A DNA stretch of 47,568 nucleotides from Spirogloea muscicola (taxonomy: Eukaryota > Streptophyta > Zygnematophyceae > Spirogloeales > Spirogloeaceae), in assembly GCA_009602725.1 (NCBI GenBank), contig WELB01000178.1, positions 128,451-176,018 of the forward strand, given 5' to 3'. Below are positions 1 to 37,170 of this stretch, piece after piece. A model generated the notes under the pieces. The model had not been told where the DNA came from and made no database searches. It saw only the letters and a program-made list of their open reading frames with translations. How positions within the stretch are numbered: the first letter of the stretch is position 1; every line of letters starts with the position of its first letter. The position numbers and the translations under genes were made by a program.

Positions 1-52
1 CCTCCTCCTCCTCCTCCTCCTCCTCCTCCTCCTCCTCCTCCTTCTCCTCTTT
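1..52. repeat. (CCT)n microsatellite
   Basis: An uninterrupted run of CCT triplets opens the window and grades into C-rich sequence up to about 110. The open frames over 115-1120 are proline and arginine rich because of this composition, so they are not gene evidence by themselves. Confidence 0.95.
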
Positions 53-331
53 CCCCTCCTCCTCCTCCCCCTCCGCCTCCCGCAGCCGCCACACCGCCCG
101 CCGCCACCCCATCTGTGCGCTCCCGATGCCGCCCCCGGAGCCGGAGCCCCGAGTGCCCCCCCGGCCAAGCTTGCCAGGCCGCAGCTCCCCCTCCCCACCG
201 CCCCCGACTCCGTCACCAAGCCGCCTCCGTCGCCACCCCCACTGCCAATCCCCTCCCCATCGCTATCATCCCCGTCTGCGCCCCTTTCGCCCCCTCCTCC
301 ATCCCCGCCGCCACCATCACCCCCACCAGCG

Positions 332-3300
332 ATGCCCGCGCGTGTGCAGTGCCCCGGCTATCCGAAAAGCTGCAAGAACAACAAGGGTCTCAAAATCCAC
401 GCGCACTCCTGCCCAGGGCGTGCCAGTCCCACCGGCACGGCGCCTGCTGTGGCCGTTGCGGCGTGCGGCCCTGCCCCTTCTGTCTGGGTTTCAGCGTAGA
501 AGCAACTCACGGAGGAGCACATATCGCCTCCCGTCCCTGAGACGCAAGGGGCACCTGCTCTTCCACCTCCGCCCTTGATGAGTGAAGGGCCCACAGAGGC
601 GCACCCGCTCATTCCTCCTCTGTCCATTGGGCGCGATGCTGGCCTTGATGATCCTGTGTGTGCGCCTCCCGTGGCAGAAGGGCCGCAGCTGCAACAACCC
701 GCCGTGCCGCCACCCCCCCCACCATCCTCATCTCCCGTGCCGTCCACACCCGCCCCGCCGTTGTCACCACCCTCACCCTCCCCGCCGCCTCCGACACCGC
801 CGCCGTCGCCGACGCCAGCGTCACCACCGTCGCCGCCGCCTCCCCCGCGCCCCCCGCCGCTGAGCCAGCCACCCGCCTCGTCCTCACCGCCGCTTTCTCC
901 GTCCGAGCCTTTACGGTGCCGGCACTGTCAGCGCCCCTGGCCAACCAGCGTGCTCAGACCTCGCACGAGCGCGCTTGCCGGCAGCAGGCCAATCGTGCTG
1001 CGCAGACGCGGGCCTCGTCCGCAGCGGGCGGCCGCGGCCGTGCTGGCAGCCCAGGCCGGCGTGTCCTTCAGGGCCGACCCCTCCAGGTCCTCACCACTGG
1101 CAATGGGCGGCGGACCTTAACCTGGATGTGGTCCACCGGCAGGAGGCTCTCCTACTCCTGCGCCATGTGCCGCAATGGGCGCGCCCACACGTGCGCCGCG
1201 CCCTCCGCCCCATTCTGCAGCGAATCGTGGTCGACCACAGGGACGCGGCGCCTGGAACTTCTTCACTCTCTTCCCCCCCCCTCAGGCTGCTGCTTGGGCG
1301 AGTACCCCTCCAGGGCCACGGCCAAGACAGCCAGCTGCTCCTGGACCGCATCTACCTCTTTGAGTGCGGGCGATGGGAGGAGCTCCTGGCGCGGCACGAC
1401 GCTGCAGTGGCTGCGGCCTCAACAGGCCGCCGCACTTCGCAGACAGCGCCTTCGCCTGACAGGGCGGCCAGTGTCCGCCGCGCTCTCCGGTATGGCCATG
1501 CTGGGGAGCTCTCCAGGGCCGTCCAGGCGCTCGATGATTCGGTGTTGGCTCCGGCGACTGAGGCCACGTGGGAAGCCCTCTCATTCCCCCACCCCCCGGC
1601 GCACTCTCCCCTGCCTTCGTGGTTGGCTTCCTACATCCCGCAGGCGGAGGTGGCCCTTGATGCGGCAGCCTTCCGCAAGGCCTTGCAGAGCAGCCGGTGC
1701 GCAGCTGCAGGCGGCCCCTCGCGCATGGTCATGGAGCATTTGAGGGAGCTCTTCCTCGAGGGGGACGAGGCGGACTTTCTGGCGCTGCACCAGGTGTGCC
1801 AACACATGGCCCGGGGTCACATCCCTGCCAGCATCCGCGGTGTGCTCTGCGCCAGCACCCTGCTAGCCCCTCAGCAAGGTCAATGGCGGCGTCCGCCCTA
1901 TCGCCATCGGCGAGGTTCTGTACCGCCTGGTGGGACGGGCACTCTGGCAACAGCACGCCGATGCGGCCCAGACACACCTGGCCCCACACCAGTATGGCGC
2001 AGGCCTGCGGAGCGGTGGCGAAGCAGTGGTTCATGGGGTGCGGGCTTCTCTCGACTTGCACTCCGAGTGGGTGGTGTTGGCAGTGGACGTCCGCAATGAC
2101 TTCAACTGCGTCGACCGCGCAGCTGTCGCCGAGGAGCTCCGTGACGCCTTCCCCACCCTGCTGCCGTTCTTCCGGCTGGGCTACGGCCAGCCCAGTGATC
2201 TGCTATGGCGGCTTGGAGCCGGAGGGGTGGAGGTCCTACAGTCTTCCACAGGCACGCGTCAGGGGGACCCGCTGGCGGGGTTCTTCTACGCGCTGGCTCA
2301 CGACCGCGCCCTGAAGGCCACGGCAGCTGCTCACACGGGCGTCCTCATGCCCACGTATGCCGATGACACCACCCTAGTCGGGCCAGCAGACGAGGTCTTG
2401 GCTGCCTTTGCCACCCTCAAGGAGCAGCTGAAAGAGATCTGCCTGGACATCCGCGCGTCAAAGTGCAGCGCTTGGTCCCCACAAGGGTTGCCAGCCCTCC
2501 TCCACCTACCCTCCGGCTGTCAGACACCAGCGGGGGGCCTCACACTCCTCGGGGTTCCCTTGGGCTCACCGGCCTTCGTGGACGAGCAGCTGCACGGCAA
2601 GCTGCAGGAGCACCTCAAGCCGGCGGCCCGCCTCCCTGAGCTGCGCGACATGCAGCTAGGGCCCGCCATGCTGACGCGCAGCATTGCGCAACGTCCCCTG
2701 TACCTGGCTCGAGCCCTCCCCCCCTCCCCGGCGGCGCAGGCCGCCTAAGCAACCTTCGATGCAGGTATCCTCGCCAGCACAGCGGCCCTGGTCCGACACC
2801 CGGCCTTCCTGGCGACGCCGGCTGCCGTGCACCAGGCTTCCCTGCCTGTGAGCCGCGGGGGTCTGGGCTGCTGTCCGCCGGCTCGTGCCTGCCGGGCAGC
2901 ACACCTGGGGAGTTGGGCGCAGGTTGCGGCTTCGGTGGCCCAGCGTTTCATCCGGCATGGGGGTCGCCTTCTGGAGCAGGCGGCAGCGGACGTGGAGACT
3001 GGCACGTTGCCCTTCCAGGCGGCTCTCCGCTCAGCCCGGGAGGCGCTGCTTGCAGATCACCCCGCCCTGGTGCCACGGGCTGTCCCATTCGCGCACCTCG
3101 CGCTCACGGCCGACCTCCGGGCCCAAGCTCGCTTCATGGCAGAGATAGATGCGGCCTCCTTCACCACAGCGATGGGGCTCTTGCCATCGGCCGACCTCTG
3201 GGGGCGCGCGCGGTTGCTCTCGGCATCCTCACCAGGGGCGGCAGCTTGGTTGTCTGCCCTGCCGATCCGCGACGCGCTCCGAATGCCCGATGACGCCTTC

Positions 3301-4175
3301 CGTACGGCGGTGCACCGCCTCCTCGGCCTCCACCCACCCTGCCTCAGTGGAGTACAGCAGTGTGAGTTCGGAGAGCGCAATTCAGACGCGGCATTGTTGG
3401 CAGCTCATATGCTCAGGTGCGCACGGGGCGGGGAGCGGACAGGAACACACGACCTGCTGCGGTATGCGATGTTTGGCATCTTTGTCGAGGCCGGTCACAC
3501 GGTGGCGCTCGAGAATACCAGCATCATGCCTCCGACCGCTGCGGCGGATGGCCGCATCCACACCCGGCGTGCCGATCTCGTCGCCAGCGCGCTCGGCGGG
3601 GGGCCTCGGCTCATCGCCGACGTTGTCACGACTGACTGCTTTGTTTCCAGCAGCGCCAAACGCTCATCGGAGGAGGCGGGCTACACAGTCCGCCAAGCGG
3701 CGGGCGCAAAGGAACGGAAATACTAGCACCACCCGGTGGGAGACGCGTTTGTTCCACTGGCAGTCGACGTGCACGGAGGCTTTGGCTCGAAATGGCTTGA
3801 CTTGCTCCACCTCCTTGCGCGGCGTGCAGCGGCCCGCCGCCTCGGGCAGCAGGGCGAGCAGCCCGGCTTCAATGTCGCCCGGTCCCTCGCTCAAGTCTTC
3901 CGAATGCCTTTGGCCATCTCGATGCAGCGGTCCCTTGCCTCCGCGGTTCACTTGCGCGCAGGCCGAGCTTTGGCGGCGGCCTCCAGCTTCCGTCAGGGCG
4001 ACGTCTTTCCGCCGGCTAGCTACTCAGACTTGCATCTCTTGACTAGAGGTTACTGAGCGTTCCCTGGCTGATGTCTGAGTCCTAGTCCTTCGTACTCCGG
4101 CTCCTTCAGACCTTGTCCATTCCTTAGGGCTGGCCTTTCCCAGCCACCAGTCAATCTGGCCGCTCTTCCTCTTTT
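332..4175 (+). mobile_element. R2-like LINE (RT + RLE), near full-length but decayed, subfamily A
   Basis: A non-LTR retrotransposon with the R2-type order: N-terminal zinc fingers, reverse transcriptase, C-terminal zinc knuckle and restriction-like endonuclease. A short ATG frame at 332-499 holds a C-x6-C-x9-H-x3-C finger and then stops. A second finger near 915-990 is split between two frames (CRHC in one, HERAC in another). The pre-RT region reads in one frame to about 1880, then the RT continues in another frame (about 1870-2748) with VDVRNDFNCVD (motif A), GTRQGDPLA (motif B) and YADD (motif C). In-frame stops fall at 2746 (TAA) and 3724 (TAG). The endonuclease region has R-A-D-L-V, then I-A-D-V-V, then K-E-R-K-Y, which fits the PD-(D/E)XK pattern with the distal K..KY. 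The knuckle reads CEFG where a sister copy has CECG, so one metal ligand is lost. The coding tail ends at 4056, followed by a 3' UTR with a GGCTGG/CCAGCC hairpin. It cannot be active as it stands. Confidence 0.85.
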
Positions 4176-4257: not shown

Positions 4258-4398
4258 TTTCCTTGTCCATTCCTTTGAGCTAGCCTTTCCCAGCCACCAG
4301 TCAATCTGGCCGCGCTTCCAATCTTCTCGTACTCTGTTCATTCTGTTTTGGGCTGGCATTTCCAGCCCCTATCCTCAATGGGCGAGCACTCTCTCTTT
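4258..4398 (+). mobile_element. Two LINE 3'-UTR tails in series (A then B)
   Basis: Directly after copy 1 comes a second subfamily A tail (4258-4322, with the CCAGTCAATCTGGCCGCG end). It is followed by a subfamily B tail (4323-4398) with the hairpin GGGCTGG..CCAGCCC and the end ATGGGCGAGCACT. Neither has upstream coding sequence. They look like extreme 5'-truncated insertions landing near one another. Confidence 0.7.
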
Positions 4399-4399
4399 T

Positions 4400-4860
4400 G
4401 AGAGAGCCACTTTCTGACGCCGCGGAGGCCCGAATGCCGGACGGCCCGGTTCCAAGACCCCGCCTGGCTAACGACCGGGAGCTAGAGCCCACCCAGCTCC
4501 CCCGGCGCAGACCGGGGCCCAGTATGGCCCTGCGGCCGCTGCAGCAGGCGAGAGGCGCAGCGCCGCGCGCGCCTGCAGCCGCCGCCGCCGCCCGCCCCCG
4601 NGCGCTGCCGGCGCCTCGCCCGGCACCCGCCTCCACGACGCGGCCGCCGCTGCTCCCCCGGCACTGCTTGGGACGGCAGCAGTGCCGCCGGCGGGCCTAC
4701 CTAGCGTGGCGGCGTGGCGCATCCCGCGCCACAACTACTCCCAGGCTTGGCCCGTGAGCGCCGGGCCTGCTGCAGCCAGGCCCCCCCGCGCGCGACAGCC
4801 TTTGAGCTGCCGGCTGCTCATGAGCGCAACCCGCTTGCGCAGCCCCTTGATGTGCGGGAG
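4400..4860 (+). other. GC-rich 5' region of the TauE/SafE gene
   Basis: A very GC-rich stretch with one ambiguous base at 4601. It probably holds the promoter and first exon. An ATG at 4524 opens a frame, but I cannot connect it in phase to the exon at 4861. The ambiguous base means an assembly error is possible. Confidence 0.5.
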
Positions 4861-7794
4861 CCGCGACGATCGCTGCGACGATCGTGGGAGCCATCGGGGC
4901 CACGCTGGCATGCGCCGGCGGCGTCGGCGGCGGAGGCCTCTTCGTGCCCCTCTTCAACCTCCTTCTCCAGTTTGACGCCAAGACCTCCGCAGCACTGTCC
5001 AAGTGTGCGTGCTGCCAACTCCTCGGCTGGCATCCCTTCTCGCTTCCTCCCGTTGCTGCTCGCCCATCTGGCGTCGTGCCGAAAGTGGAACCCGATGAGA
5101 CGGCCGCTGAACCTGCAGCTCATTCGTGATGGCGCCTCCCAGCGATGATCTTTGGTGGCGCGGTCACGAGCTTCCTGTACAATGGGCGCCTGCAGCACCC
5201 CTCGCAGCAGCGGCCGCTGATTGACTACGACACCGTGCTGCTCCTGGAGCCGTGCCTGCTGCTCGGCATCTCTGCGGGCGTCCTGTGCAACATCGTCTTC
5301 CCCTCCTGGCTCATCATCGTCCTCCTCACAGCCATCCTCTCCTGTGAGCGTGCTTTCCACGCCAGACGTGCCTTGTCGCTACCACCTCCATCCTCCAGCT
5401 CCTGCAGTGGCGTGCTGTCAGCTACTATGCACTCCACCATTGAAGCCCTTGTGACAACTGCAGCCTCTACTCCTGCAGATGTGACTGCCAGAAGCTTCAG
5501 CAGCGCACGAGCTCTTTGGAACCGTGAAGATGCTGCATGCCTTACGAATGTAAGCCTTGCAGCTTACTAGTATCTCTCTTGTAGCTTGTATAGCACAACA
5601 CTTTACTCTTGTTGCTTCCGGGTCTTCTTGCACTCTAGCTGAGCAATTCAATTGTGACTCCCATCGCAGGGCAAACAGGATGGATCACTGACTGACGCTG
5701 ACGGCTGTGGCATTGAGAGCTTTGTCAGCTCTCCCACGTCAAGAGGTGCAGTATACTCGCTCAATTCTCTCACATGTACTTGCTGGGCCTGAGCTCTTCA
5801 ACAATGCCACATTGATGTGCTGCACGTACGGTATTCCTGCTGTTGCCAGGCCTTACAGTGCCGTGGCTGACATCTGTACACTCTGCGGAGAATGTATGGG
5901 CCAGCGAGAAACTAAGCCTTGCACAGAGTGGGCAACACTACACATCACAAGACCCGAGTGCTCTGGCAAACCTTGCCGAGCCCTTGCTTCCTCAAGTACA
6001 CACGGACCTGGTCTCTTAAACCCTGGAAAATGTGTCAAAATATGTGCTGCTTTTCAACCACGTTGGACTTGAATGTCGTAACATCTATTGTTGATTTCAC
6101 ATTCTTGTGTGATCGGAGGAGGCCATGCCATTTTTTGAATGAGGTTATCTTTCGCAGTGATTACAGAAGAATTATGCATCTGTAAGGTTGCAGTAAAGAA
6201 GGTCCCAGCACACAAGCATAATCCGGTGTGATGATCAGTGTTTGCCTTACCTGTGAGCAGGTCCGCAGGGAGCCACTGTTTCCTGCTCTGAAGATGCTGA
6301 TGCTTGGTCTTATCTGGCTATCCTTCTTACTTATCCAAATACTTAAGGTCTCCGCTCTCTCACCTGATACGCGACCATTTTAGGCAGCTCCTACTTGAGC
6401 ATTTGCAGGCCTGCTATTTATGTACATGTGAATAAATAGCGTATGTTGAACTCGGCGGCTGTGACGATTGTAGGGAGCACATGGTCCTCTTCATGCTCAA
6501 GTTTGTGGGCCTGCATACTGGATGCTGACCATGAGCCAAGTATGTCAACATGAAGGGCTTTGTGAGGCAACACAAGCGTACATTGCTTGCACTCCATGCA
6601 AACAGTATTATGAGTCTCTTGAGCACCGTGCAGTCAATCGATCATCCCATCAGCAAGTCTGATAGAAGGAAGCATAAGGCACAAGTGGAGTCTAGTAGAA
6701 ATTCCACCAAAGTGCTTGCTGATACAACAGGTGTCTCTCACGTTGATCGCCTGCAGATTCCTTTGGCTCTGGGGCTTACAGCATGGATTGTAAGCTTACT
6801 TTCTGGGGAGCACAGGCAGCGCCTGGCACAGGGTATTGAGTATGGAGAGGGTGATGTAGAATTTAGTCGGAAGCAGCTCCTGCTGCTACCTCTGAGCGCG
6901 TTATGCGCAGGGTGTATGGGTGGCCTGCTAGGCATCGGGGGTGGCATGGTCATCAGTCCCCTTCTTGTTGAGCTTGGTATGCTTCCCCAGGTATGCTCCA
7001 GTCCCATGGCTGCCTTTCTATATCGTAAGTGTGGCTGCTCCTAGATACGACACCTGGTCTACATGCCCTTGCAGGTGGTGGCAGCTACTGGGGCGTTCAT
7101 GGTGCTATTTTCATCAGCGATGTCTGTGTCCGAGTTTTACCTCCTTGGGCGTATACCTGTGGACTACGGTAAGAAAGTTCTTCACTGAGGGTTTCACTTT
7201 GTGCACCTGTTACATGCTTTTGCTTCAGGCGCCATTCGTACATGCTTGCATGTGCCAGGAAGCTTATGCTCAGATATGGTTGCAACAGCACGATGATAGT
7301 AATCTTGAATATACGAGATGGCACGTGGTCTTCGTGCTTACGACGTCTCTGAGACGGAAGAGCTGGCTCCAATGCTACTGAGTTTTGCTGGTTTGCAGCA
7401 ATCTATTTTGCAACCATCTGCATGCTATCATCCCTAGGAGGGCTCATCGCATTTCAGCGCGCCATTGTGAAATATGGCCGGGAGTCACTCATCATCTTTG
7501 CTGTCGCAGGAGTACTTGCGATGTCAGTGCTCCTCATGGGTACGAACTCACTAGCTACTCAAGCACTGATGGCCAGCAAAGCGGCGGAGCTACTTGTGGG
7601 GCAACATGCAAAGCTGAACCCTTTAAGAGCTATCATGAGTAGCATGTCGCATCACATGGAGAGGGCTTCCGTTATCAATTCTCACTGGTTTTCTGCTTGT
7701 TCTCTTGGCAGCTTTGTTCGGCACTTTGGATGTATACCAGCGCTATGTAAATGGTGAGGCCATGGGCTTTCATAGGCTCTGCATTTCAGACTAG
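4861..7794 (+). CDS. TauE/SafE-family membrane carrier (plant type), 5' end unresolved
   Basis: A multi-pass permease of the TauE/SafE family (sulfite, sulfonate or other anion export; the substrate cannot be read from sequence). Exons by phase: 4861-5004, 5143-5343, 5479-5549, 5670-5750 (or 5745), about 6541-6990, 7075-7168, 7399-7539 and 7664-7794 (TAG). This gives about 437 residues without the N-terminus. The first repeat has GGVGGGGLFVPLFNLLLQFD then K-T-S-A-A-L-S-K. The second repeat has GGLLGIGGGMVISPLLVELG, the matching half of the family's inverted repeat, followed by SMSV/AMSVSEFYLLGRIPV. A hydrophilic loop (exons 4-5) separates the halves, as in plant members. The stop codon follows MGFHRLCISD. 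An in-frame TGA at 4848 forces the first recognised exon to start at 4861 on a weak acceptor, so the start codon lies upstream. The acceptors at 6541 and 7664 are also weak. Confidence 0.85.
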
Positions 7795-12528: not shown

Positions 12529-13010
12529 GCGCGGCCAGATTGACTGGTGGCTGGGAAAGGCCAGCCCAAAGAGAAAGTGCTCGCCCATTGAGGATAGGGC
12601 TGGAAAAGCCAGCCCAAAAAAGAATGCCGCATTGGCTTGTTGCCTGGTAAGCTGCTGATATGCACAGAGTACGAGAAGGGGGCCCAGGGAAGCGCTAAGA
12701 AAAGCAAGCACACAGAGATAAAGCAGCTACGAAGCACTCAATAACCCCTGCTAAGCAGCCGCAGATTAGAGATGCTAGGCTCCTGGAAGTGGGTCCCGTG
12801 GCCAGAGCCAAAGGCAGCAGCGAGGGCTCTGCCAGCACGAAGGTGCAGCGCGCAGACCATAGACCTCTGCAGCCGATGTAACAGCCGATTCTTTAATCAG
12901 CAGCCGCATTCCTTTTCTTTCTGCAGCGAGACGGCCAGGCGCATGCGATACACTTGCGCCAGCGACCCAGCTGCAGGAATGTCTACCGGCTCCCCATGGA
13001 AGCGACGGGA
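12529..13010 (-). mobile_element. LINE subfamily B 3' fragment with A tail attached, minus orientation
   Basis: On the minus strand the order is: C-terminal coding piece (about 13010 to 12755, RMRLAVSL.. through LLSRGY and stop), the B 3' UTR (12755-12571, hairpin at 12588-12615), then an A tail (12570-12529). The coding piece carries a 46-base insertion at 12874-12919. The B UTR carries an unrelated insert of about 38 bases near 12626-12663. Confidence 0.75.
12874..12919. mobile_element. 46-base insertion with 8-base target duplication
   Basis: Against other B copies, where the sequence runs GACCTCTGCAGCGAGACGG, this copy has 46 extra bases. They are bounded on both sides by TCTGCAGC (12866-12873 and 12920-12927). 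The insert ends TTCCTTTTCTT, a pyrimidine end like the other tails here. Confidence 0.75.
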
Positions 13011-13013
13011 AGC

Positions 13014-13090
13014 CCAGCCCAGCCCCAGCCCCAGCCCAGCCCAGCCCAAAGGAACGGACAAGGTCTGAAGGAGCCGGAGTGCAAAGGACT
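13014..13090 (-). mobile_element. LINE A tail with expanded CAGCC hairpin arm
   Basis: The GGCTGG/CCAGCC hairpin arm has expanded into a short run of CAGCC and CAGCCC units (13014-13049). The usual subfamily A UTR follows (AAAGGAACGGACAAGGTCTG, then AGGAGCCGGAG). Confidence 0.65.
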
Positions 13091-13175
13091 AGGACTAAAT
13101 AAGACAGCAGCCAGGACTAGGAGAAAAAGAAAAAAGAGAGAAAAAAGGAGAAAGTGCTCGCCCTTGGAGAATAGA

Positions 13176-13498
13176 GAAAGCGCGGCCAGATTGACTGGTG
13201 GCTGGGAAAGGCCAGCCCAAAAGGGAGCTTGAGTGCGAACGACTAGGACTAAGACATCAGCCAGGGAACGCTCAGTAATCTCTAGACAGGAGATGCAGAT
13301 CCGAGTAGCTAGCTGGTGGAAAGACGTCGCCCTGACGGAAGCCGGAGGCCGCCGCCAAAGCTCGGCCTGCGCGCAAGTGAACCGCGAAGGCGAGGGACCG
13401 CTGCATCGAGACGGCCAAACGCATACGGAACACCTGAGCGAGGGACCCGGCTACGTTGAAGCCGGGCTGCTCGCCCTGCTGCCCGAGGCGGCGGGCTG
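13176..13498 (-). mobile_element. LINE subfamily A 3' fragment (coding tail + 3' UTR), minus
   Basis: The minus frame reads RRLGQQGEQPGFNVAGSLAQ, then RMRLAVSMQRSL, then GFRQGDVFPPASYSDLHLL and stop at 13272. The A 3' UTR hairpin follows at about 13195-13218. The 5' truncation is near 13498, where a B-type UTR (13500-13600) abuts it. Confidence 0.8.
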
Positions 13499-13499
13499 A

Positions 13500-13665
13500 G
13501 AATAGGGGCTGGAAAAGCCAGCCCAAAAAAGAACCAACAAAGGACGAGAAGGGGGCCAGGGGAAGCGCTAAGAGAAACAAGCACACAAAGAAACAAAGCA
13601 GCCAGGGGACGCTTAGTAACCTCTAGTCAGTAGATGCAAGTCTGAGTAGCTAGCCGGCGGAAAGG
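13500..13665 (-). mobile_element. LINE 3' tail, B-type UTR joined to A-type coding end
   Basis: The B-like UTR (hairpin GGGGCTGGAAAAGCCAGCCC at about 13505-13524) is joined to an A-like coding end (SDLHLLTRGY region, 13605-13665, minus). The mixed type suggests an intermediate subfamily or a junction of two insertions. Confidence 0.55.
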
Positions 13666-13794
13666 AAAGCGTCAATTGTGGCGGAGCGCGGCATGCTCGC
13701 TAGTGGACGGCGAACAGCAGCCCAAAACGCTCGTCGGAGGAGGCGGGCTACGCAGTCGGCCAAGCGGCGGGCGAGAAGGAACGGAAGTACTCGG

Positions 13795-13922
13795 AAGAAA
13801 GTGCTCGCCCATTGAGAATAGGGGCTGGAACAACCAGCCCGAAAAAGAATGAACAGAGTACGAGAAGGGGGCCAGGGGAAGCGCTAAGTAACAGAAACAA
13901 AGCTGCTACGAGACACTCAGTA
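13795..13922 (-). mobile_element. LINE B 3'-end insertion, TSD ACTCGG
   Basis: A B 3' UTR plus the last few codons, in minus orientation, inserted in the host LINE. ACTCGG occurs at 13789-13794 and again at 13923-13928. The uninterrupted relative in copy 1 reads straight through at 3720-3730. The 3' terminus (minus strand) is CGAGCACTTTCTT. Confidence 0.85.
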
Positions 13923-13983
13923 ACTCGGACCACCCGGTGGGCGACGAGTTCGTTCCATTGGCAGTGGACGTGCACGGAGCCTT

Positions 13984-14513
13984 GAAGAAGGGCTCGCCCA
14001 TTGAGAATATGGGCTGGAACAGCCAGCCCAAAAAAGAATGAACAGAGTACAAGAAGAGGGGGGGGGAAGCCAGGCGAAGCCCTAAGGCGAAGCAGCAGAA
14101 ATGACAAGCACACAAGAAAAAACAAAGCAGCTACTAACCACTCAGTAACCCCTGCTAAGCAGGCGCAGGTCGGAGAGGCTATGCTCCTGGAAGTATGTCC
14201 CCTGGCCAGAGCCAGAGGCAGCAGCAAGGGCTCGGCCATCACGCAGGTGTAGCGCACGGGCCATGGACCTCTGCAGCGAGACGGCCAGGCGCATGCGATA
14301 CACCTGGGCCAACGACCCGGCGGCGGGGAAGTCCACCGGCTCCCCATGGAAGCGGCGGGCAACGGCGTGACGAGCAAGTTGGTGGAGCAGTTCGAGCCAC
14401 CGAGCACCCAACGCCCCATGGGTGTCGATAGCCAGAGGGAAGAACGCGTCGGCTGGCGGATGGTCGGCGTACTTGGTCACCTTTGCGCGAGCGGCGCCTT
14501 CGACCGCATACCC
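13984..14513 (-). mobile_element. 530-base 5'-truncated LINE B insertion, TSD AGCCTT
   Basis: Minus orientation: about 125 C-terminal codons (AKVTKYADHP, ARWLELLHQLARHAVARRF, SLAQVYRMRLAVSLQRS through LLSRGY and stop near 14142), then the B 3' UTR with hairpin, ending GAGCCCTTCTTC at 13984. AGCCTT flanks it at 13978-13983 and 14514-14519, exactly where the host LINE reading is broken. Confidence 0.88.
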
Positions 14514-14709
14514 AGCCTTTGGCTCCAAATGGCTTGACTTGCTCCACCGCCTGGCGCGGCGTGCAGCGGCCCGCCGCCTCGGGCAGCGGGGCGAGCAGCC
14601 CGGCTTCAACGTAGCCGGGTCCCTACGCTTGGGTTTTCCGTATGCGTTTGGCCGTCTCGATGCAGCGGTCCCTCGCCTTCGCGGTTCACTTGCGCGCAGG
14701 CCGAGCTTT

Positions 14710-14809
14710 AGGGCTTCGCCTGGCTCCCCCCCCCCTCTTCTTGTACTCTGTTCATTCTTTTTTGGGCTGGCTGTTCCAGCCCATATTCTCAATGGGCGAG
14801 CCCTTCTTC
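14710..14809 (+). mobile_element. 100-base LINE B 3'-tail insertion, TSD GCTTT
   Basis: A hundred bases of B 3' UTR (hairpin at about 14764-14783, end ATGGGCGAGCCCTTCTTC) interrupt the host LINE codons for GRAL-AAAS. GCTTT is at 14705-14709 and 14810-14814; the undisturbed relative at about 3967 has it once. Confidence 0.88.
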
Positions 14810-14882
14810 GCTTTGGCGGCGGCCTCCGGCTTCCGTCAGGGCGACATCTTTCCGCCAGCTTGCTTCTCGGACCTGCATCTCC

Positions 14883-15064
14883 GGACCCACTTCCAGGAGC
14901 CCAGCATCTCTGATCTGCGGCTGCTTAGCAGGGGTTACTGAGTGTCTCGTAGCAGCTTTGTTTCTGTTACTTAGCGCTTCCCCTGGCCCCCTTCTCGTAC
15001 TCTGTTCATTCTTTTTCGGCTGGTTGTTCCAGCCCCTATTCTCAATGGGCGAGCACTTTCTTTC
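14883..15064 (+). mobile_element. LINE B 3' end running into the assembly gap
   Basis: Coding end THFQEPSISDLRLLSRGY with stop TGA at 14939-14941, then a full B 3' UTR with hairpin, ending GAGCACTTTC at the gap. The right-hand duplication is not visible because the gap follows. Confidence 0.8.
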
Positions 15065-15473
15065 NNNNNNNNNNNNNNNNNNNNNNNNNNNNNNNNNNNN
15101 NNNNNNNNNNNNNNNNNNNNNNNNNNNNNNNNNNNNNNNNNNNNNNNNNNNNNNNNNNNNNNNNNNNNNNNNNNNNNNNNNNNNNNNNNNNNNNNNNNNN
15201 NNNNNNNNNNNNNNNNNNNNNNNNNNNNNNNNNNNNNNNNNNNNNNNNNNNNNNNNNNNNNNNNNNNNNNNNNNNNNNNNNNNNNNNNNNNNNNNNNNNN
15301 NNNNNNNNNNNNNNNNNNNNNNNNNNNNNNNNNNNNNNNNNNNNNNNNNNNNNNNNNNNNNNNNNNNNNNNNNNNNNNNNNNNNNNNNNNNNNNNNNNNN
15401 NNNNNNNNNNNNNNNNNNNNNNNNNNNNNNNNNNNNNNNNNNNNNNNNNNNNNNNNNNNNNNNNNNNNNNNNN
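15065..15473. other. Assembly gap (409 N)
   Basis: A run of N immediately after a LINE 3' end, consistent with repeat-induced collapse or scaffold joining. Other single N calls are at 4601, 38048 and 44253, all within GC-rich sequence. Confidence 0.99.
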
Positions 15474-19500: not shown

Positions 19501-20261
19501 GCATTTAGCAAAGTGCCAGTGACAACCGTCTGCACCTCCTGGCACTCAGCAGCTTGGCTCCAACAAGCTGCCAAATGCAAGCATTCATACCAGGTCGGCA
19601 GCCGCGCGGAAACTGCGGATTATGAGCTGCGGGTGCACGCCCTCTTCCACAAACGGCTTGGCCTCGCGCAGGAATTCCCCGGCCAGCAGCACCACGGTTG
19701 TTGTGCCATCGCCGACCTGCAAGGCGAGGCCACCAGGTGAGCTGATCCACTCCCACTCGAAGACGAGTTTTTGCACCTTCCCGAGGGCCATCAGAGGGCA
19801 CAGCTTGTGGCTGCGCACCTCGGAGTCCTGGGAGCGAGCAATGTCGGCGAGGGTCTTGGCGGCCGGGTGCACGATGTCAAGGAGGCGCAGAATGGTGGCG
19901 CCGTCGTTGGAGATTGTGGTGGCGCCCTTGTCGTCGTGGATGAGCTTGTCCATGCCGCGCGGGCCCAGGGTGGTGCGCACGGTGTCCACGACGGCCAGGC
20001 AGGCGCCGATGTTGCTCATCAGCTGCGCCTTGCCCTGCGACGTGTCCGTGCCCTCCTTGAGCAGGATAATCTGCGGCTGCTGCGCGCCGCTCCGCCGCCA
20101 CCACCACAGCCGCGCTCGCCGGCATCAGCGCATGGCCACAGCCGCGGCGCCGGAGCTGGGGCCGTGGTGAGCAGCAGAGGAGGCGGAGAGGGAGGCATGC
20201 AGGGGAGGGCGGGAGCGTGGCTGCGGCCGGGGCGCAGAGCACTGACGAGCATGGCGGCCAT
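16579..20261 (-). CDS. CCT7: T-complex protein 1 subunit eta (CCT7), complete
   Basis: A subunit of the cytosolic CCT/TRiC chaperonin, which folds actin, tubulin and other clients using ATP. Fourteen exons, all in phase: 20247-20261, 19819-20079, 19591-19716, 19041-19244, 18770-18939, 18534-18669, 18273-18389, 18036-18155, 17726-17824, 17530-17619, 17326-17413, 17079-17167, 16869-16943 and 16579-16686. They give 565 residues, close to the family's usual length. The equatorial ATP site shows [22 protein letters not shown] and [15 protein letters not shown] (GDGTT at about 94-98). The apical and late regions show [56 protein letters not shown] (about 411-416), [20 protein letters not shown] and WEPAVVKINAL. 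It ends in an Arg/Gly tail ([13 protein letters not shown]), as in plant CCT7. Exon 1 codes only five residues (MAAML), chosen because it makes the plant-like start before [12 protein letters not shown] and has a GTCAGT donor; this start is inferred. Confidence 0.95.
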
Positions 20262-20454: not shown

Positions 20455-20530
20455 GCGCGGGGCGCATGAAATGAAATGGAGGCCAATTCAAGCACTTTCT
20501 TCTAATTCAAGCCGATACATGGTTCAGGCA
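20455..20530 (+). repeat. Dispersed repeat E copy
   Basis: Contains GGCGCATGAAATGAAATGG, AGGCCAATTCAAG, CGATACATGGTTCAGGCAGA. It is split by the 11-base insertion at 20493-20503. It abuts a LINE 3' end at 20553. Confidence 0.75.
20485..20511. mobile_element. 11-base LINE 3'-terminus insertion, TSD AATTCAAG
   Basis: CACTTTCTTCT (20493-20503) sits between two copies of AATTCAAG (20485-20492 and 20504-20511) inside dispersed repeat E. Other repeat E copies have AATTCAAGCC once. The 11 bases are exactly the terminal bases of the B subfamily 3' UTR. Confidence 0.8.
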
Positions 20531-20552: not shown

Positions 20553-21590
20553 GAGAAAGTGCTCGCCCATTGAGAATAGGGGCTGGAACAACCAGCCCGA
20601 AAAAGAATGAACAGAGTACGAGAAGGGGGCCAGGGGAAGCGCTAAGAAACAGAAACAAAGCAGCTGCGAGACACTCAGTAACCCCTGCTAAGCAGCCGCA
20701 GATCAGAGATGCTGGGCTCCTGGAAGTGGGTCCCCTGGCCAGAGCCAGAGGCAGCAGCGAGGGCTCTGCCGGCACGAAGGTGCAGCGCCCGGGCCATGGA
20801 CCTCTGCAGCGAGACGGCCAGGCGCATTCGATACACTTGCGCCAGCGACCCGGCTGCAGGGAAGTCTACCGGCTCTCCATGGAAGCGCCGGGCGATGGTG
20901 TGGCGGGCGAGCTGGGTGAGCAGCTCGAGCCACCGAGCGCCCAGCGCCCCATGTGTGTCGATGGTCAACGGGAAGAACTCGTCTTCCCGCGGATGATCCG
21001 CGTACTTCAGCTCTTTGGCCCGAGCAGCGCAGGCGACCGCATACCCAGCCGTGGTGGCACAGTTAGCTGGGTGTGAGCGGTCATAGGCATCAGTAGTCAC
21101 CACGTCCAGGAGAAGACGTGGCCCGCCGGCCTGTCGGGTGGCCACCAGGTCTACACGCCTAGCGTGGAGACCGTCGGCCCTGTGCTGGATTGTCATGATT
21201 CCGGAGTGCTCTGCTGCCACAGAGAAACCAACCTCCAACAGGATGCCATGCATTACGTCGCGGAGGCGGTCGTGGGCCGCTGTCCGCTCTCCGCCGTGGG
21301 AACAGCGCAGAACATGAGCAGCCAGCTCTCCAGGCTCGGTCCCGCGCTCGCCACACTCACATTGACGCACACCCTGGAGACATGGCGGCAGCAGGCCCAG
21401 GAGCCGGTGGACGGCACTGCGGAATACCTCGTCCGGGAGGGTGAGGGCGTCGTTGAGGGGGAGGGCCTGGAGCCACGCCGCAGCCCCCAGGGAAGAGGCC
21501 GAGTGGAGTCTCGCGCGCCCGCGCAAGTCGGCCTCGGGGAGCTGCAGCACGGCGGTGGTGTAGGCGGCAGGGCTACATGATACGGAGACC
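20553..21590 (-). mobile_element. LINE subfamily B, 5'-truncated copy with intact endonuclease frame
   Basis: About 300 uninterrupted codons of the C-terminal half on minus (stop at 20675). They start near SPAAYTTAVLQLPEADLRG and include a full zinc knuckle (CECG, then H-V-L-R-C), HDRLRDVMHGILLEV, ARRVDLVATRQ, RLLLDVVTTDAYD and AKELKYADHP. It ends LLSRGY, then the 3' UTR and hairpin to 20553. This is the best-preserved endonuclease domain in the window. Without RT it is not autonomous. Confidence 0.88.
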
Positions 21591-21597
21591 GAAACCA

Positions 21598-21770
21598 AGG
21601 TGCCTAAGGTGACATCAGTACCCACGGGTGAGCACAAACAAATCCGACAAGCTAAGTTGTGGAGCTGGAGCGCCGCCACGAAAAGCCGGAGGCCTGACTT
21701 CAAGCGCGCCCTGCGCTTCTTTCTTCCTCCTGCACGTTGATGAAGAGCTTGCGAGTGCAAAAGAAGAAGA
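21598..21770 (-). mobile_element. LINE subfamily D 3' fragment
   Basis: The minus frame near 21640 reads QLSLSD, then VLTRGY and a stop. A UTR containing CCTTAGGCACCTTGG follows. The same UTR words recur at 35990-36040 after another copy of this subfamily. It lies between the two B copies. Confidence 0.6.
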
Positions 21771-21771
21771 A

Positions 21772-23550
21772 AGTGCTCGCCCATTGAGGATAGGGGCTGG
21801 AAAAGCCAGCCCAAAAAAAATGAACAGAGTACGAGAAGGGGGCCAGGGGAAGCGCTAAGAAAAACAAGCACACAGAGAAACAAAGCAGCTACGCATCACT
21901 CAGTAACCTCTGCTAAGCAGCCGCAGGTCGGAGATGCTAGGCTCGTGGAAGTGGGTCCCCTGGCCAGAGCCAGAGGCAGCAGCGAGGGCTCTGCTGGCAC
22001 GAAGGTGCAACGCCCGGGCCATAGACCTCTGCAGCGAGACAGCCAGGCGCATGCGGTACATTGCGCCACCGACCCGGCTGCAGGAAAGTCTACCGGCTCC
22101 CCATGGAAGCGACGGGCGATGGTGTGGCGGACGAGCTGGGTGAGCAGCTCGAGCCACCGAGCGCCCAGCGCCCCATGGGTGTCAATAGCCAACGGGAAGA
22201 ACTCGTCTTCCCGCGGATGGTCTGCGTACTTCAGCTCTTTAGCCCGAGCAGCGCAGACGACCGCATACCCAGCCTTGGTGGCACATTGGGCTGGGTGTGA
22301 GCGGTCGTAGGCATCAGTGGTCACCACGTCAGGAGAAGACGTGGCCCGCCGGCCTGTGGGGTGGCCACCAGGTCTACACGCCGGGCGTGGAGACCGTCGG
22401 CATGATGGATCGGCATGATGCCGGAGTGCTCCACTGCCACGGAGAAGACAGCCTCCAACAGGATGCCATGCATCGCATCGCGGAGGCGGTCGTGGGCCGC
22501 TGTCCGCTCGCCGCCGTGGGCACAGCGCAGAACATAAGCGGCCAGCTCCCCAGCTCGGCCTCTCGCTCGCCGCATACACACTGACGCACGCCCTGGAGAC
22601 ATGGAGGCGGGAGCCCCAGGAGCCGGTGGACGGCAGTGTGAAACACCTCAACGGGGAGAGCGAGGGCGTCATTGATGGGGAGGGCCTGAAGCCACGCTGC
22701 TGCCCCCGGGGAGGAGGCCGATCGAAGTCTCGCGCGCCCGCGCAAGTCGGCCTGGGGGAGCTGCAGCACGGCGGTGGTGTAGGCGGCCTTGTCGACCAAA
22801 GCCGCGAAGCGCGCTTGGACGCGCAGGTCAGCGGTGTGCGCGAGGTGCGCGAAGGAGACCGCCTGGCCTGCCAGGTCCGGGTGCGCTGCGAGCAACTCCT
22901 GGTGGGCGGAGCGAAGCGACACCTGGAACGGCAGCGGGCCCATGTCGACCTCCACCACCGCCTGCTCCAGTGCACGCCGGCCGTGGACCATGAAGCGCTG
23001 GGCCACGGAGGCGCCAGTCTGCGCCCAGCTGCCGAGGTATGCAGCCCGGCAAGAACGGGCGAGCGGGCGCAGGCCGAGACCACCGTGGCTGAGGGGTAGC
23101 GCCGCCTGGTGGATAGCGGCTGGCGACTGGAGGAGCCCTGGTGGCGGACCAGGGCCGCCAAGCTCGCCACCATGCCTGCATCAAAATCCGCGTACGCCGC
23201 CAACGCCCGTGGGGACGGCGGAGTGGCCCGCATCAAGTACTGGGGCCGCTGCCCAATGGCCTTGGTCAACATGGCCAATGACAGCTGCATGTCGTCCAGC
23301 TCGGGAAGCCGGGCCGCAGGCTGAAGATGCTCCGCAAGGCGGGCTCGCAGCTGTCCCTCCACGAAGGACGGCGCGCCGATGGGGAACCCCAGCAGGGTGA
23401 AGCCATCTGCTGGAGTCTGGCAGCCGGTGGGCAGCGTCAGGGTGGGTGGGAGGCCGCAGGGAGACCAAGCCGCGCACTTTGACGCCCGGGTGGACAGGCC
23501 GAGGTTGGCCAACTGCAACTCAAAGGTGATGGAGGCAGATGGGGGCAAGG
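21772..23550 (-). mobile_element. LINE subfamily B, longer 5'-truncated copy, frameshifted
   Basis: Begins in the RT thumb (RASKCAAWSPCGL, CQTPADGFTLLGFPIG, DMQLSLAMLTKAIGQRPQYL) and runs through the endonuclease to the end of the frame near 21896, then the B 3' UTR. The middle (about 23080-22370) is displaced into other frames: HTADLRVQARFAALVDKAA and CLQGVRQCVCG appear in a second frame, and GELAAYVLRCAHGGERTAAH in a third. The opening frame is regained at DVVTTDAYDRSHP. The 5' break is near 23550. Confidence 0.85.
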
Positions 23551-24115
23551 GCAAGGGGGGAAGGGTGAACAGCCAGCAGCCTCGGGCTTCTGGGCCCCTT
23601 CTTCGCCCGACGGCCGCCGCCCCCTCAGGCGATGCTCAACCGTCGTCCGCCCAGGTGAGCTCTTCCAATCTCTTCTTCTTTCTTCCAATCTCCCTCTGCA
23701 CCGTCTTGTACTTCTTAGTGTACTACACTTCAAAGTACTACACTACATTCTTTCTTTGGCTTTGAACATTGTCCATTCTTTTTGGGTTGGCTTTGCCAGC
23801 CCCTCTTCTCTATGGGCGGGCACTTCCTTCCAAAGCAAGTGGCTCTCCCCAACTAGCCCGACTGTTGTTGGGAACAGCCCAAAGCGGGGCTACAGCCTGA
23901 CGGGCTAAGCACCGAAGCCCGCCCGGCCCCGACCTTGCTGGCTCTCGCCACCGCCTTCCCCGCCGCCGCCGCCGCCGCTACCGCCGCCGCCGCCGCCGCC
24001 GCCACAGCCGCCAGCGCTGCAACGAGAAGACTGCGTCCTTGAAAGCAGTGCGCTCCTCGATGGTCAATGTGATGCCACTGCAGTCACCACGAGGGCTCGC
24101 TGCTGCCGCCGAGCT
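23551..24115. other. Intergenic with LINE tail and (GCC)n
   Basis: A LINE 3' tail of type C is at 23763-23835 (TTTTTGGGTTGGCTTTGCCAG, then CTATGGGCGGGCACTTCC). A (GCC)n tract is at about 23957-24012. The remainder is GC-rich and probably the promoter of the membrane protein gene at 24116. Confidence 0.6.
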
Positions 24116-26349: not shown

Positions 26350-27155
26350 ACCTAGGCCTTTCTTGCATACTTCACTGCAGGATTCTAACCGACAGACTGA
26401 TACCAGACCCTGTCCTACATTCAACAGATCCAAAGAGCGGAAATGTCATTTCGCTTTCGTTTCCTTGGATTGACACCTGCCCCTGGAATGCCACAAGAGA
26501 GTGTGAGCCATCCACCCCAGGCTGAGCTCCCCTACTGCTTCTGATGGTCGTTTGCAGCAGCCAAGGGCACGGAGGCTGAGCAGGGATGTTTGCAGGCGCA
26601 GGGCTTGGTGAGGTTGATGGCGAGCTTGTGGAGAGCCTTGCGCTGGAGAGGTGTACCATCGACAGCACTCTTCTCTCAGGCAAGCATGCGGAGAAGAGGC
26701 GCGCTTGTGAAGGCAGCAGTGTGTGGCAAGGCGGCATGGCAGTCTGCAGAAGCTGAACGGAGGAGTGGCTGAGCGCAGCCGGGTTGGGTGGCTTTGGGTG
26801 CAGGGCTCGGCAGCGAGGAGCGTGGGAGGTGCCGAGTTGTAGCCCAGAGGCAAGGGTGGCAGCTGGCAGCCACGTGCTTCGTCGGCGGCGCACACCACAA
26901 CGACGAGCTCCTCGCCCTGGGATACTCAGAGCCTCGTCAGTGTGCGGCTGGGAGGCGGAACAGTTCTTCGAAAGTGAGGCGATGATTGTCAGAGGGCAGA
27001 CCAGTTTGAAAGAACAAGGTCCCGAGAGGAGAAGCGTGCAGTGAGTGACTGCGGCCGGAGCGGCTCAGCCCAGAAAAGGAAGTGCTCGCCCTTAGAGAGG
27101 AGGGGCCCGAAGGCCAGCACAAGGGCAAAGGCAAGGGCGGGCGTGGCCCACTGGG
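26350..27155. other. No confident gene
   Basis: Frames exist on both strands (for example minus 26372-26893 and plus 26784-27044), but none has a recognisable domain, clean splice pattern or homologous motif. The right end (27076-27120) resembles a degraded LINE tail (AAGTGCTCGCCC). Confidence 0.4.
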
Positions 27156-27246
27156 CGCTTCCCCTGGCCCCCTTCTCGTACCCTGTTCATTCTTTTTCGG
27201 GCTGGTTGTTCCAGCCCCTATTCTCAATGGGCGAGCACTTTCTTCG
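27156..27246 (+). mobile_element. LINE B 3'-tail insertion, TSD CTGGG
   Basis: 91 bases of B 3' UTR (GCGCTTCCCCTGG to GAGCACTTTCTTC, hairpin at about 27198-27217) lie between CTGGG at 27151-27155 and at 27247-27251. It sits a few hundred bases upstream of the RING domain exon. Confidence 0.75.
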
Positions 27247-27519
27247 CTGGGTAGAGCTTCTGGGCGCAGCCTCGGCAATCGGCCATGGCAAGGCCTTGGT
27301 GGTCCCTCGGGCCGGGCCTCCCACACACTCGTGCCGGGCTGTCCACAGCCCCCGCCCCCTTTGAGAGAGCCACTCTTCTTCGTCTCACTGCCGCGGCCCG
27401 CTGCTGGAAGGGTCTTGCTCTCGTTCACAGCCGCGGCCCGACTGTGGCCGGAGCTGCTTCCGTCGCCGCGCTCCGGAAGCGCTGTGGCACCCCACCATCC
27501 CGCGCGCCCCCGCGCCCCC

Positions 27520-35106: not shown

Positions 35107-35207
35107 CGGTTACTGCCCGAGCCCGCGGGCACCCCCGCTGCGCTGCCGCTTCCTCGTTGCTGGCGGTGCGCCCCGCTACCGCCAACTACTTGCAGGTCGT
35201 TAAAGAG

Positions 35208-35310
35208 AAAGTGCTCGGCCATTGAGGATAGGGGCTGGAAAAGCCAGCCCAAAAAAGGATCAACACAGTCCCAGAAGGGGGCCAGAGGAAGCGCTAAGAA
35301 AAACAAGCAC
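35208..35310 (-). mobile_element. LINE B 3' tail, minus
   Basis: AGAAAGTGCTCGGCCATTGAGG, then GGGGCTGGAAAAGCCAGCCC (hairpin at 35230-35249), then a diverged CAGTCCCAGAAGGGGGCCAG. It lies just upstream of the kinesin 5' end and is only the UTR. Confidence 0.8.
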
Positions 35311-35323
35311 ACACGGAATCAAA

Positions 35324-35340
35324 GGCGAGCACTTTCTTCT
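35324..35340 (+). mobile_element. 17-base LINE 3'-terminus insertion, TSD TCAAA
   Basis: GGCGAGCACTTTCTTCT stands alone between TCAAA at 35319-35323 and TCAAA at 35341-35345. It equals the last 17 bases of the B 3' UTR. Confidence 0.7.
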
Positions 35341-35344
35341 TCAA

Positions 35345-35410
35345 ATGATCAATGTATTGGCTTAAATTGGCCTCCCTTTCAATTCATGCGCCCCGCGCGC
35401 CTTCTCTCTC
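35345..35410 (-). repeat. Dispersed repeat E copy, reverse
   Basis: ATCAATGTATTGGCTTAAATTGG, then CCTCCCTTTCAATTCATGCGC and CCCGCGCGCC. This is the reverse complement of the copies at 20455 and 36450. Confidence 0.7.
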
Positions 35411-35422
35411 TTCTTCAAAAAG

Positions 35423-35790
35423 AAGCGCGGCCAGATTGACTGGTGGCTGGGAAAGGCCAGCCCAAAGGAGTGGACAAGGTCTGAATCCTCAATGGGCGAG
35501 CCCTTTCTTCTTTCTTCTGAGGGAGCTCAGTGACCCCTGCTAAGCAGCCTCAGATCAGAGGTCAAACCCCCCCCCCCCCGCCTCCCTCGCGCCCGCCCAA
35601 GTCAAGATAGAAGAAGGTGCTCGCCCATTGAGAAGAGGGGCTGGCAAAGCCAACCCAAAAAGACAAGATAGGGGCTCAATGGGCGAGCACCTTCTTCTCC
35701 CAGACTGAGAGAAGAAAGTGCTCGCCCATAACGAAGAGAAACCGGCAAAGCCAGCCCAAAAAGAATGGACAAGGTCCAAAGCCAAAGAAC
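35423..35790. mobile_element. Cluster of LINE 3' tails (A, C types), both orientations
   Basis: A type A tail (minus) at 35428-35485 (GCGGCCAGATTGACTGGTGG). Type C tails at 35605-35665 (minus, hairpin GGGGCTGGCAAAGCCAACCC), 35666-35698 (plus, a bare end) and 35709-35790 (minus). A C homopolymer-like tract is at 35568-35579. All are UTR-only pieces. Confidence 0.7.
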
Positions 35791-35914
35791 GAGGAGCCGG
35801 AAATAGACTACACTACAAAAACACAAGACAATGCAGAGGGAAGCTCAGTATCCGCGAGTGAGCAACATCAGGTCTGAGTAGCTCGCTGCAAGAGAGAGAG
35901 AAGGCGAGCGGAGC

Positions 35915-35985
35915 GCATGAAGTACAAGCGTGGCCATTTTAAGCCAATACATTACTATTCAGGCACAGTCAGGCAGGATAAACCA
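35915..35985 (+). repeat. Dispersed repeat E copy
   Basis: GCGAGCGGAGCGCATGAAGT, then GTGGCCATTTTAAGCCAATAC and ATTCAGGCACAG. It lies next to a subfamily D LINE tail. Confidence 0.65.
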
Positions 35986-35999
35986 AGGCTACATATGAC

Positions 36000-36340
36000 G
36001 GAGCCCTATGCTAAGGTGCCTAAGGTAACAGGGTGACATTAATACCCACAGGTGAGCACATGCCAATCCGACAAGCTAAATTGGGGAGCCGGATCGCCCC
36101 CACGGAAGCCGGTGGCCTGACTTAGAGCGCGCCCTGCACGCTGATGAAGAGCCAGAGCTTGCGAGCGCTGCAAACCAAGCGAAAGTGGCACTCTATAGTA
36201 TGCAACTAATGCCTGCGGAATGCTGGTGTGGCCCAAGCTGCCTTCCGACTTCGACAACTAGCGGCAATCAGCCGGGCCAGGTGCTGGATGAGGAAGGACC
36301 ATTTCAATTCGTAGTCTCCGTAGATATCCTGGCACACGGA
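36000..36340 (-). mobile_element. LINE subfamily D 3' fragment, frameshifted
   Basis: Minus: DIYGDYELKWSFLIQHLARL in one frame, then SIPQALVAYYRVPLSLGLQR, then LALHQRAGRALSQATGFRGG and LSDWHVLTCGY with a stop at 36039 in another. This parallels the C-terminus of A and B copies but is clearly more diverged. The UTR with CCTTAGGCACCTTAG follows. Confidence 0.75.
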
Positions 36341-36449: not shown

Positions 36450-36530
36450 GTCAATGAGAGAAGGCGCGCAGTGCGCTTGAAACTGAAGCGAGGCCAATTC
36501 AAGCCAAAACATTGTTCAGGCAGAAAATGC
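36450..36530 (+). repeat. Dispersed repeat E copy
   Basis: AGAGAAGGCGCGCAGTGCGC, then TTGAAACTGAAGCGAGGCCA, ATTCAAGCCAAAACATTG and TTCAGGCAGA. Confidence 0.65.
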
Positions 36531-36654
36531 AGAAAGTGCAGTGAGGAAGAAGGAAGGAAGCTCGTCCAAATTAAGCTAGCGCAGGGAAGACCTGGGCAAA
36601 CAACCCGACAGCGTTGAAGCCGAGCAGCTCCCCTTGGGAGAGAGTGGCTCTCCC

Positions 36655-37170
36655 AAAGGAAGAAAGGGCTCGCCCATTGAGAAGAGGGCTGGCAAAGCCA
36701 GCCCAAAAAGAATGGACACTGTCCAAAGCCAAAGCAAGAGGTGCCGAAAAAGGACTACACTACCAAATACGACAACGCACTGGGAAGGGGGCAAGGGCTG
36801 TCAAAAGCCAGCCCGAAAAGGTTTGACAAGCTTCGAAGAGCCGAAAGGCGCCTAAAACACACAGCTACGCACGATCAGCGGAAAGAAAGCGCGGCCAGAT
36901 TGACTGGTGGCTGGGAAAGGCCAGCCCAAAGGAATGGACAAGGTCTGAAGGAGCCGGAGTGCGAAGGACTAGGATGAAGACATCAGCCAGGGAACGCTCA
37001 GTGACCTCTAGTCAGGAGATGCAAGCGGAGGGGAGCTTAGTAATACCGAGTTAGCAGCAGCAAGTCGGAGTAACTTGCAGCTGGAGAAGAGGCACGTCGA
37101 CGAGACCGTACAGCTCTTCCAATATAAGGGGGCTGTACATAGCCAGCCCAAAAGAAGGGACGAGGTTCGA
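36655..37170 (-). mobile_element. Series of LINE 3' tails (C, A and diverged)
   Basis: Type C tail at 36655-36740 (CTCGCCCATTGAGAAGAGGG, then CTGGCAAAGCCAGCCC). A diverged hairpin is at about 36800-36840. A full A tail with the last codons of the coding frame is at 36885-37030. A further diverged tail is at about 37125-37170. All are minus and all lack the body of the element. Confidence 0.7.

Follow-up and report, generated by a model that had tools for sequence, protein, structure and literature searches.

A predicted RLE-type LINE clan with short target-site duplications at ten sites without an invariant base

The window analysed here is a stretch of 47,568 bases with about 58% G+C, which contains an N gap (15065-15473) and three single Ns. 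Its content, with LINEs and a chaperonin exon, is eukaryotic. It carries related RLE-type LINEs with distinct 3' tails that form at least three families, for which we coined the labels A, B and Y in the present analysis (Table 1). In the family B LINE at the beginning of the window, the C-terminal signature SDLHLLTRGY* ends at 4056, and the 3' limit was set by comparison with truncated copies. Scanning the window with a pattern built from families A and B, we found SDLxLLTRGY or a near variant ahead of a stop at ten places, which, read from these C-termini, may represent at least five subfamilies. Several copies are nested. Family Y sequence lies on both flanks of the family A copy with the 297-aa frame, as established by comparison and by eye; the pieces of the family B copy interrupted by family A insertions are colinear with 3648-4038; and the 142-bp family B insertion lies directly past the stop codon of its host, another clan member recognised by its C-terminal signature. 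In the frameshifted family A LINE, segment 22314-23502 is 68% identical to 2438-3635. Two likely host genes were also seen: an exon of a TCP-1 chaperonin subunit at 19600-20120 on the minus strand (by eye), and a frame at 6550-7044 on the plus strand with a weak TauE/SafE match under the Pfam cut-off.

Table 1. Clan copies and insertions in the window, with target-site duplications (TSD) and accepted uninterrupted paralogous sites
Element	Coordinates	Strand	TSD (positions of its copies)	Uninterrupted site; flank overlap in it	Remarks
Family B LINE	1..4175	+			5' end may lie beyond the window; frames broken upstream; RT reads in frame from 1876 on, then linker, CCHC-like cluster, RLE and stop (4054-4056); frame interrupted by stops at 2746 and 3724; hairpin in 3' UTR
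Family A in family B copy	12572..13041	-	CAGCCCAAAG (plus strand)	14 bases	470 nt, counting slipped repeats; apparent AGCCC slippage at 5' junction; newly added
Family B within 3' end of family A-type element	13175..13497	-	GAGAATAG (plus strand)	9 bases	323 bp; newly added
Family B copy	13715..14882	+			hosts three family A insertions nested within it and a fourth at its downstream border
Family A	13795..13922	-	ACTCGG, plus strand (13789-13794, 13923-13928)	3722-3724; 3 bases	128 bp
Family A	13984..14513	-	AGCCTT, plus strand (13978-13983, 14514-14519)	3777-3782; 6 bases	530 bp; 6-nt 5'-junction microhomology
Family A	14710..14809	+	GCTTT (14705-14709, 14810-14814)	13357-13361; 5 bases	100 bp
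Family A 3' end	14883..15063	+			N gap starts right after the 3' end
Family A micro-insertion	20493..20503	+	AATTCAAG (flanking)	36496-36504; 9 bases	11 nt; within family Y 3' region
Family A	20553..21568	-			5'-truncated; 297-aa open frame to stop (CCHC-like + RLE)
Family A LINE	21766..23502	-	not found		5'-truncated within RT; frameshifted
Family A	27156..27246	+	CTGGG (27151-27155, 27247-27251)		91 bp; adjoins older A remnant 27075-27150
Family A micro-insertion	35324..35340	+	TCAAA (flanking)		17 nt
Family A	35610..35663	-	CAAGATA (plus strand)		54 bp; newly added
Family Y	35893..36180	-			further RLE-LINE tail; C-terminus SDWHVLTCGY*; limits by eye
Family B	36882..37023	-	AGCGG (plus strand)		142 bp; newly added

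The initial annotation took these elements for RLE-type LINEs, and the protein evidence agrees: the RT is closest to R2 among solved sequences, the KX2KY motif is present and so is a CCHC-like cluster. Firstly, 1876-4035 on the plus strand is a single frame with two internal stops and matches Pfam RVT_1 with an E-value of 2.1e-12. A profile of the RT region, built from 1876-4035 and other copies and compared with the PDB up to an E-value of 10, retrieved only three R2 sequences (best E 2.9e-5) and no L1 chain, from a set that may or may not include L1 chains. A single RT sequence retrieved the same three R2 sequences without significance (E 0.9-2.3), the RT piece 1930-2745 alone gave a chance match only, and NCBIfam gave a weak match, well short of the cut-off, to a group II intron RT (8.8e-5). 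Secondly, KX2KY, which the available excerpt of PMC5678591 describes as catalytic in the LINE RLE and as following two acidic residues, is fitted by KELKY, KERKY and KVTKY in three copies, KELKY being that of 20553-21568. D-X14-D stands ahead of it in families A and B, with the first acidic motif reading V-D or A-D, not P-D. Thirdly, the CCHC-like cluster lies at the expected position with the spacing CX1CX12HX3C, against the published CX2-3CX7-8HX4C, and in the family B copy its second C is replaced by F. A low-confidence structure model of the RLE region shows the order H-E-E-E-H-E, which fits the RLE fold, at a mean pLDDT of 40 (32 for a second model); searched alone, this region had no match in Pfam or the PDB. 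On these motifs and matches the elements are predicted to be RLE-type LINEs.

An R2-like architecture complete with N-terminal fingers had also been proposed. Its RT and KX2KY are present and the CCHC-like cluster is there with non-canonical spacing, but for the fingers we found only candidate Cys/His clusters near 340-420 and 915-985, non-canonical and in differing broken frames (by eye), and no Pfam zinc finger in the upstream frames searched. No match to an APE family, the additional endonuclease of Dualen/RandI elements, was detected in the frames searched (three for 1-578, one for 900-1898), the 5' end being broken and possibly outside the window. Patterns from the 3'-end DNA had no match in viral_contigs or genome_contigs; protein patterns gave 7, 3 and 80 matches in viral_contigs and 68 in genome_contigs, none of which was confirmed as a relative by tblastn.

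All six insertions of the initial annotation were recovered at the coordinates given there, each with its flush duplication. We added four duplications (CAAGATA, CAGCCCAAAG, AGCGG and GAGAATAG), bringing the set to ten, with TSD lengths of 5, 5, 5, 5, 6, 6, 7, 8, 8 and 10; the duplications are thus short, as had been claimed, although the upper bound of the 5-8 range proposed earlier has to be raised to 10. Three cases call for a qualification. A flush CTGGG duplication requires one additional G at the 3' end of the element. AAGGCT, which is AGCCTT read on the plus strand, also precedes the truncation point in another copy, so one copy of this duplication could be derived from the element. GCTTT was not the top-scoring repeat in a scan of 21 candidate family A ends and was flush in two other analyses. 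In that scan, a clean flush duplication was found at 7 of the 21 ends, and one more (12572-13041) lies behind a slipped AGCCC repeat; the other 13 have no accepted TSD, eight being without any repeat and five having non-flush repeats of 5-7 bases. The 21 ends count the two halves of a single interrupted element separately (13147-13169 and 13497-13664) and leave out two family A copies, namely 14883-15063, which the N gap cuts, and 21766-23502. Family B ends were examined by eye at 4173, 4319, 12521, 13175, 35419 and 36882, and two of the six have a TSD. The copy at 20553-21568 was not taken as an eleventh case, CCTG being its only TSD by eye. A 47-nt insert at 12873-12919 (region 12866-12926) with the TSD TCTGCAG lies within a family A copy in antisense; it ends in CCTTTTCTT and also looks like a very small intron with CAG at its end. 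Having no assigned family, it was kept out of the main target test and used solely as an eleventh site for the GC block described below.

We then aligned the ten sites at the first nick, as inferred. None of the columns is invariant, in line with the earlier claim that the duplications share no sequence, and the total information does not significantly exceed that of random window sets, either for the ten sites (p = 0.13 at the first nick and 0.33 at the second) or when the eight of family A are taken alone (p = 0.17 and 0.47). Across the target alignments, p for the best single column is 0.37-0.78. The 13 family A ends without accepted TSD and four presumed chance matches (5990, 24498, 30287 and 14221) were excluded from this test. 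Ten sites with no common base or significant motif exclude a strict single target of the R2 kind. The proposal that insertion has no site preference holds to this extent; a total absence of preference is a stronger statement than ten sites with a borderline GC-rich block can carry. A weak preference of the enzyme, for GC-rich DNA just ahead of the nick, for instance, or for local structure, would be invisible at n = 10, and we regard it as conceivable, though rather less probable than its absence. At positions -5 to -2, 33 of 40 bases are G or C, which gives p = 0.008 against the window but p = 0.055 against clan sequence, in a test devised post hoc, once the sites had been seen; with the eleventh site these values become 0.016 and 0.12, and the column-wise tests are not significant. 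A precedent is the EhLINE1 endonuclease of Entamoeba, which, in the excerpt of PMC3118788, favours GTATT and still nicks plasmid.

The sites lie disproportionately in clan DNA. At 7 of the 10, clan sequence makes up at least 70% of both 60-bp flanks, against 25.5% of the window. In the other three, it reaches at least 70% on one flank (35610-35663), 20% and 53% at the DNA level (36882-37023), or 27% and none (27156-27246). These proportions would be expected if the elements preferentially nested in existing clan copies rather than inserting at random, and Zepp is described in the excerpted text of PMC8226300 as inserting into its own copies. We nevertheless consider such targeting unlikely. 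Selection purging genic insertions, together with the easier recognition of nested cases, could account for the excess without targeting; both orientations and several host families are seen, the intervals taken as clan sequence had been seeded manually, and Zepp, by its published description, belongs to the L1 clade.

Whether the duplications arose on insertion was assessed with mock intervals and with paralogues. In 3000 trials with intervals of the same lengths, a repeat of at least 5 occurred in 0.2%, 3.9% and 11% at a boundary slack of 0, 2 and 4 bases, respectively; the comparison at 0 slack is circular, since in the real cases it was the duplications that fixed the boundaries. The paralogue comparison is the stronger test. 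An uninterrupted paralogous site was found inside the window for six of the ten insertions (those with a flank overlap in Table 1), accepted from an HSP scan of 32 candidate rows, most of the remaining rows pairing different copies. In these within-window paralogues the repeat is single, in agreement with the duplications claimed earlier, and the flanks overlap by the duplication length or near it; the paralogue of the ACTCGG insertion differs inside the repeat, and the site of 12572-13041 is repetitive. For the CTGGG and TCAAA insertions, no uninterrupted paralogue was found within the window. The shortest insertions were compared with shuffled sequence: two of three exact truncated matches to the family A 3' end (9-20 nt) carry a duplication of at least 5, whereas 300 dinucleotide shuffles averaged 0.28 such matches, all of them without a duplication. 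These shuffles support both the 11-nt and the 17-nt micro-insertion, and the empty paralogue additionally supports the 11-nt one. That the duplications are partly due to chance or microhomology, many of the short pieces being rearranged fragments rather than insertions, is highly improbable: the 13 of 21 family A ends without accepted TSD, the double role of AAGGCT and the 11% of random intervals with 5-bp repeats at 4-base slack speak for it, but the single repeat in six uninterrupted paralogues and the shuffles without duplication speak against it.

Target-primed reverse transcription is recognised by 3' ends that stay constant while the 5' ends vary, by short duplications and by single-copy empty sites. 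The present clan of at least three families probably moves in this way, with loose nicking. Boundaries, duplications, empty paralogous sites, truncation, an excess of microhomology and the absence of an invariant target base are demonstrated; the enzymology and RNA recognition we infer. The protein would bind its own RNA through the conserved 3' stem-loop, and the C-terminal restriction-like endonuclease, judging from the sites, would nick the bottom strand with little or no sequence specificity. The exposed 3' OH would then prime the cDNA, starting from the constant CTTTCTTC-like end; reverse transcription would commonly stop early, seen as 5' truncation (inserts of 11-530 nt); a second-strand cut 5-10 bp off would produce the duplications; and the cDNA end would be joined to the upstream flank, often through microhomology. 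Several observations bear on these steps. The 3' ends are near-constant across the ten TSD-bearing insertions. Microhomology of 1-6 nt is found at 6 of 10 5' junctions (sum 14, p = 0.0003; p = 0.03 without the 6-nt case), the sum being slightly low as the 11-nt insert scored 0 and has 2 by eye, with 0 both ways for the 17-nt insert. At R2 5' junctions, according to the excerpt of PMC11331408, microhomology likewise exceeds chance, though many junctions are without any, and most lie at most 10 bp from the nick. In an alignment of 16 copies, a 7-pair hairpin stands upstream of the 3' end, any one pair being broken or gapped in at most 2 of the 16; no compensatory change was seen among them. Ten single copies fold better than shuffles, by margins that vary between z = -0.6 and z = -3.3. 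This hairpin may serve in RNA recognition.

The two micro-insertions show how early reverse transcription can halt and yet end in a normal insertion. We tentatively suggest, as an idea slightly more doubtful than not, that target-primed reverse transcription aborted after 10-20 nt is a regular outcome in this clan, leaving TSD-bearing micro-insertions such as those of 11 and 17 nt. If so, such scars would form a hidden class of mutation that shows up only when an empty paralogous or orthologous site is there for comparison.

The initial annotation set the clan against site-specific RLE elements, and the novelty implied by this contrast was overstated. According to the portion of PMC5035012 available, every other clade with target-specific non-LTR elements also holds some non-specific families, and two R2 families, R2NS-1_SMed and R2NS-1_CSi, are non-specific. 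Little is novel here: RLE LINEs without target specificity have already been published (HERO, R2NS, BLAG), and so has loose nicking in EhLINE1. The HERO clade, as excerpted in PMC4640811, comprises many RLE-LINE families without target specificity and so resembles the present clan in endonuclease and insertion; it is defined by RT phylogeny. The two R2NS families, as described in that portion, share an R2-type RT, an RLE and scattered sites with it, but are animal elements within the R2 clade, from which the present clan is remote (profile E 2.9e-5). R2 itself inserts at one 28S rDNA site, unlike the ten different sites without an invariant base seen here. BLAG 1-6 of Blattella germanica, non-site-specific R2-like elements in the excerpt of PMC7650587, are similar in their unique surroundings and 5'-truncated copies and, compared by that description, differ as cockroach elements carrying a special domain of their own. 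EhLINE1/EhSINE1 of Entamoeba combine CCHC, a PD-D endonuclease and loose nicking, in the excerpts of PMC3118788 and PMC3747384, but have the reported GTATT preference, are listed alongside R4-type elements and occupy a different host. Zepp of Chlorella and Coccomyxa is similarly nested, with strongly 5'-truncated 3' ends, but in the passages available (PMC8226300, PMC3446292) it is of the L1 clade and clustered about once per chromosome, whereas the present clan has an RLE-type C-terminus. Green-algal Dualen/RandI elements are mentioned in excerpts of PMC8226300 and PMC3747384; no description of a comparable green-algal RLE-LINE clan was found among the papers listed by a narrow literature search of incomplete coverage. 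In its excerpted text, PMC4640811 speculates that target specificity was an early state of RLE LINEs, most advantageous in the small genomes of unicellular eukaryotes. If the host is a unicellular alga, a non-specific clan of several families would be a useful counter-example to this speculation.

Some junctions show further peculiarities. The 5' junction of 12572-13041 holds about seven AGCCC units (13010-13048) beside the duplicated CAGCCCAAAG, which looks like slippage in second-strand synthesis. At 4261-4396, the 3' tails of families B and A are joined almost directly, TTTT standing on either outer side (by eye), possibly a template switch. A twin-priming inversion at 35205-35345 was ruled out, as what is inverted there is the 3' end rather than upstream sequence. 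A family Y copy has about 15 extra nt at 21711-21734 relative to 36112-36180, which resemble the family B 3' end and are flanked by GCAG (by eye). Finally, a TTTGAGAGAGCCACT-like repeat, taken for the end of another, unassigned repeat and present at 4396-4420, 23831-23850, 36633-36658 and 27358-27380, adjoins several family A 3' ends and once stands alone (by eye).
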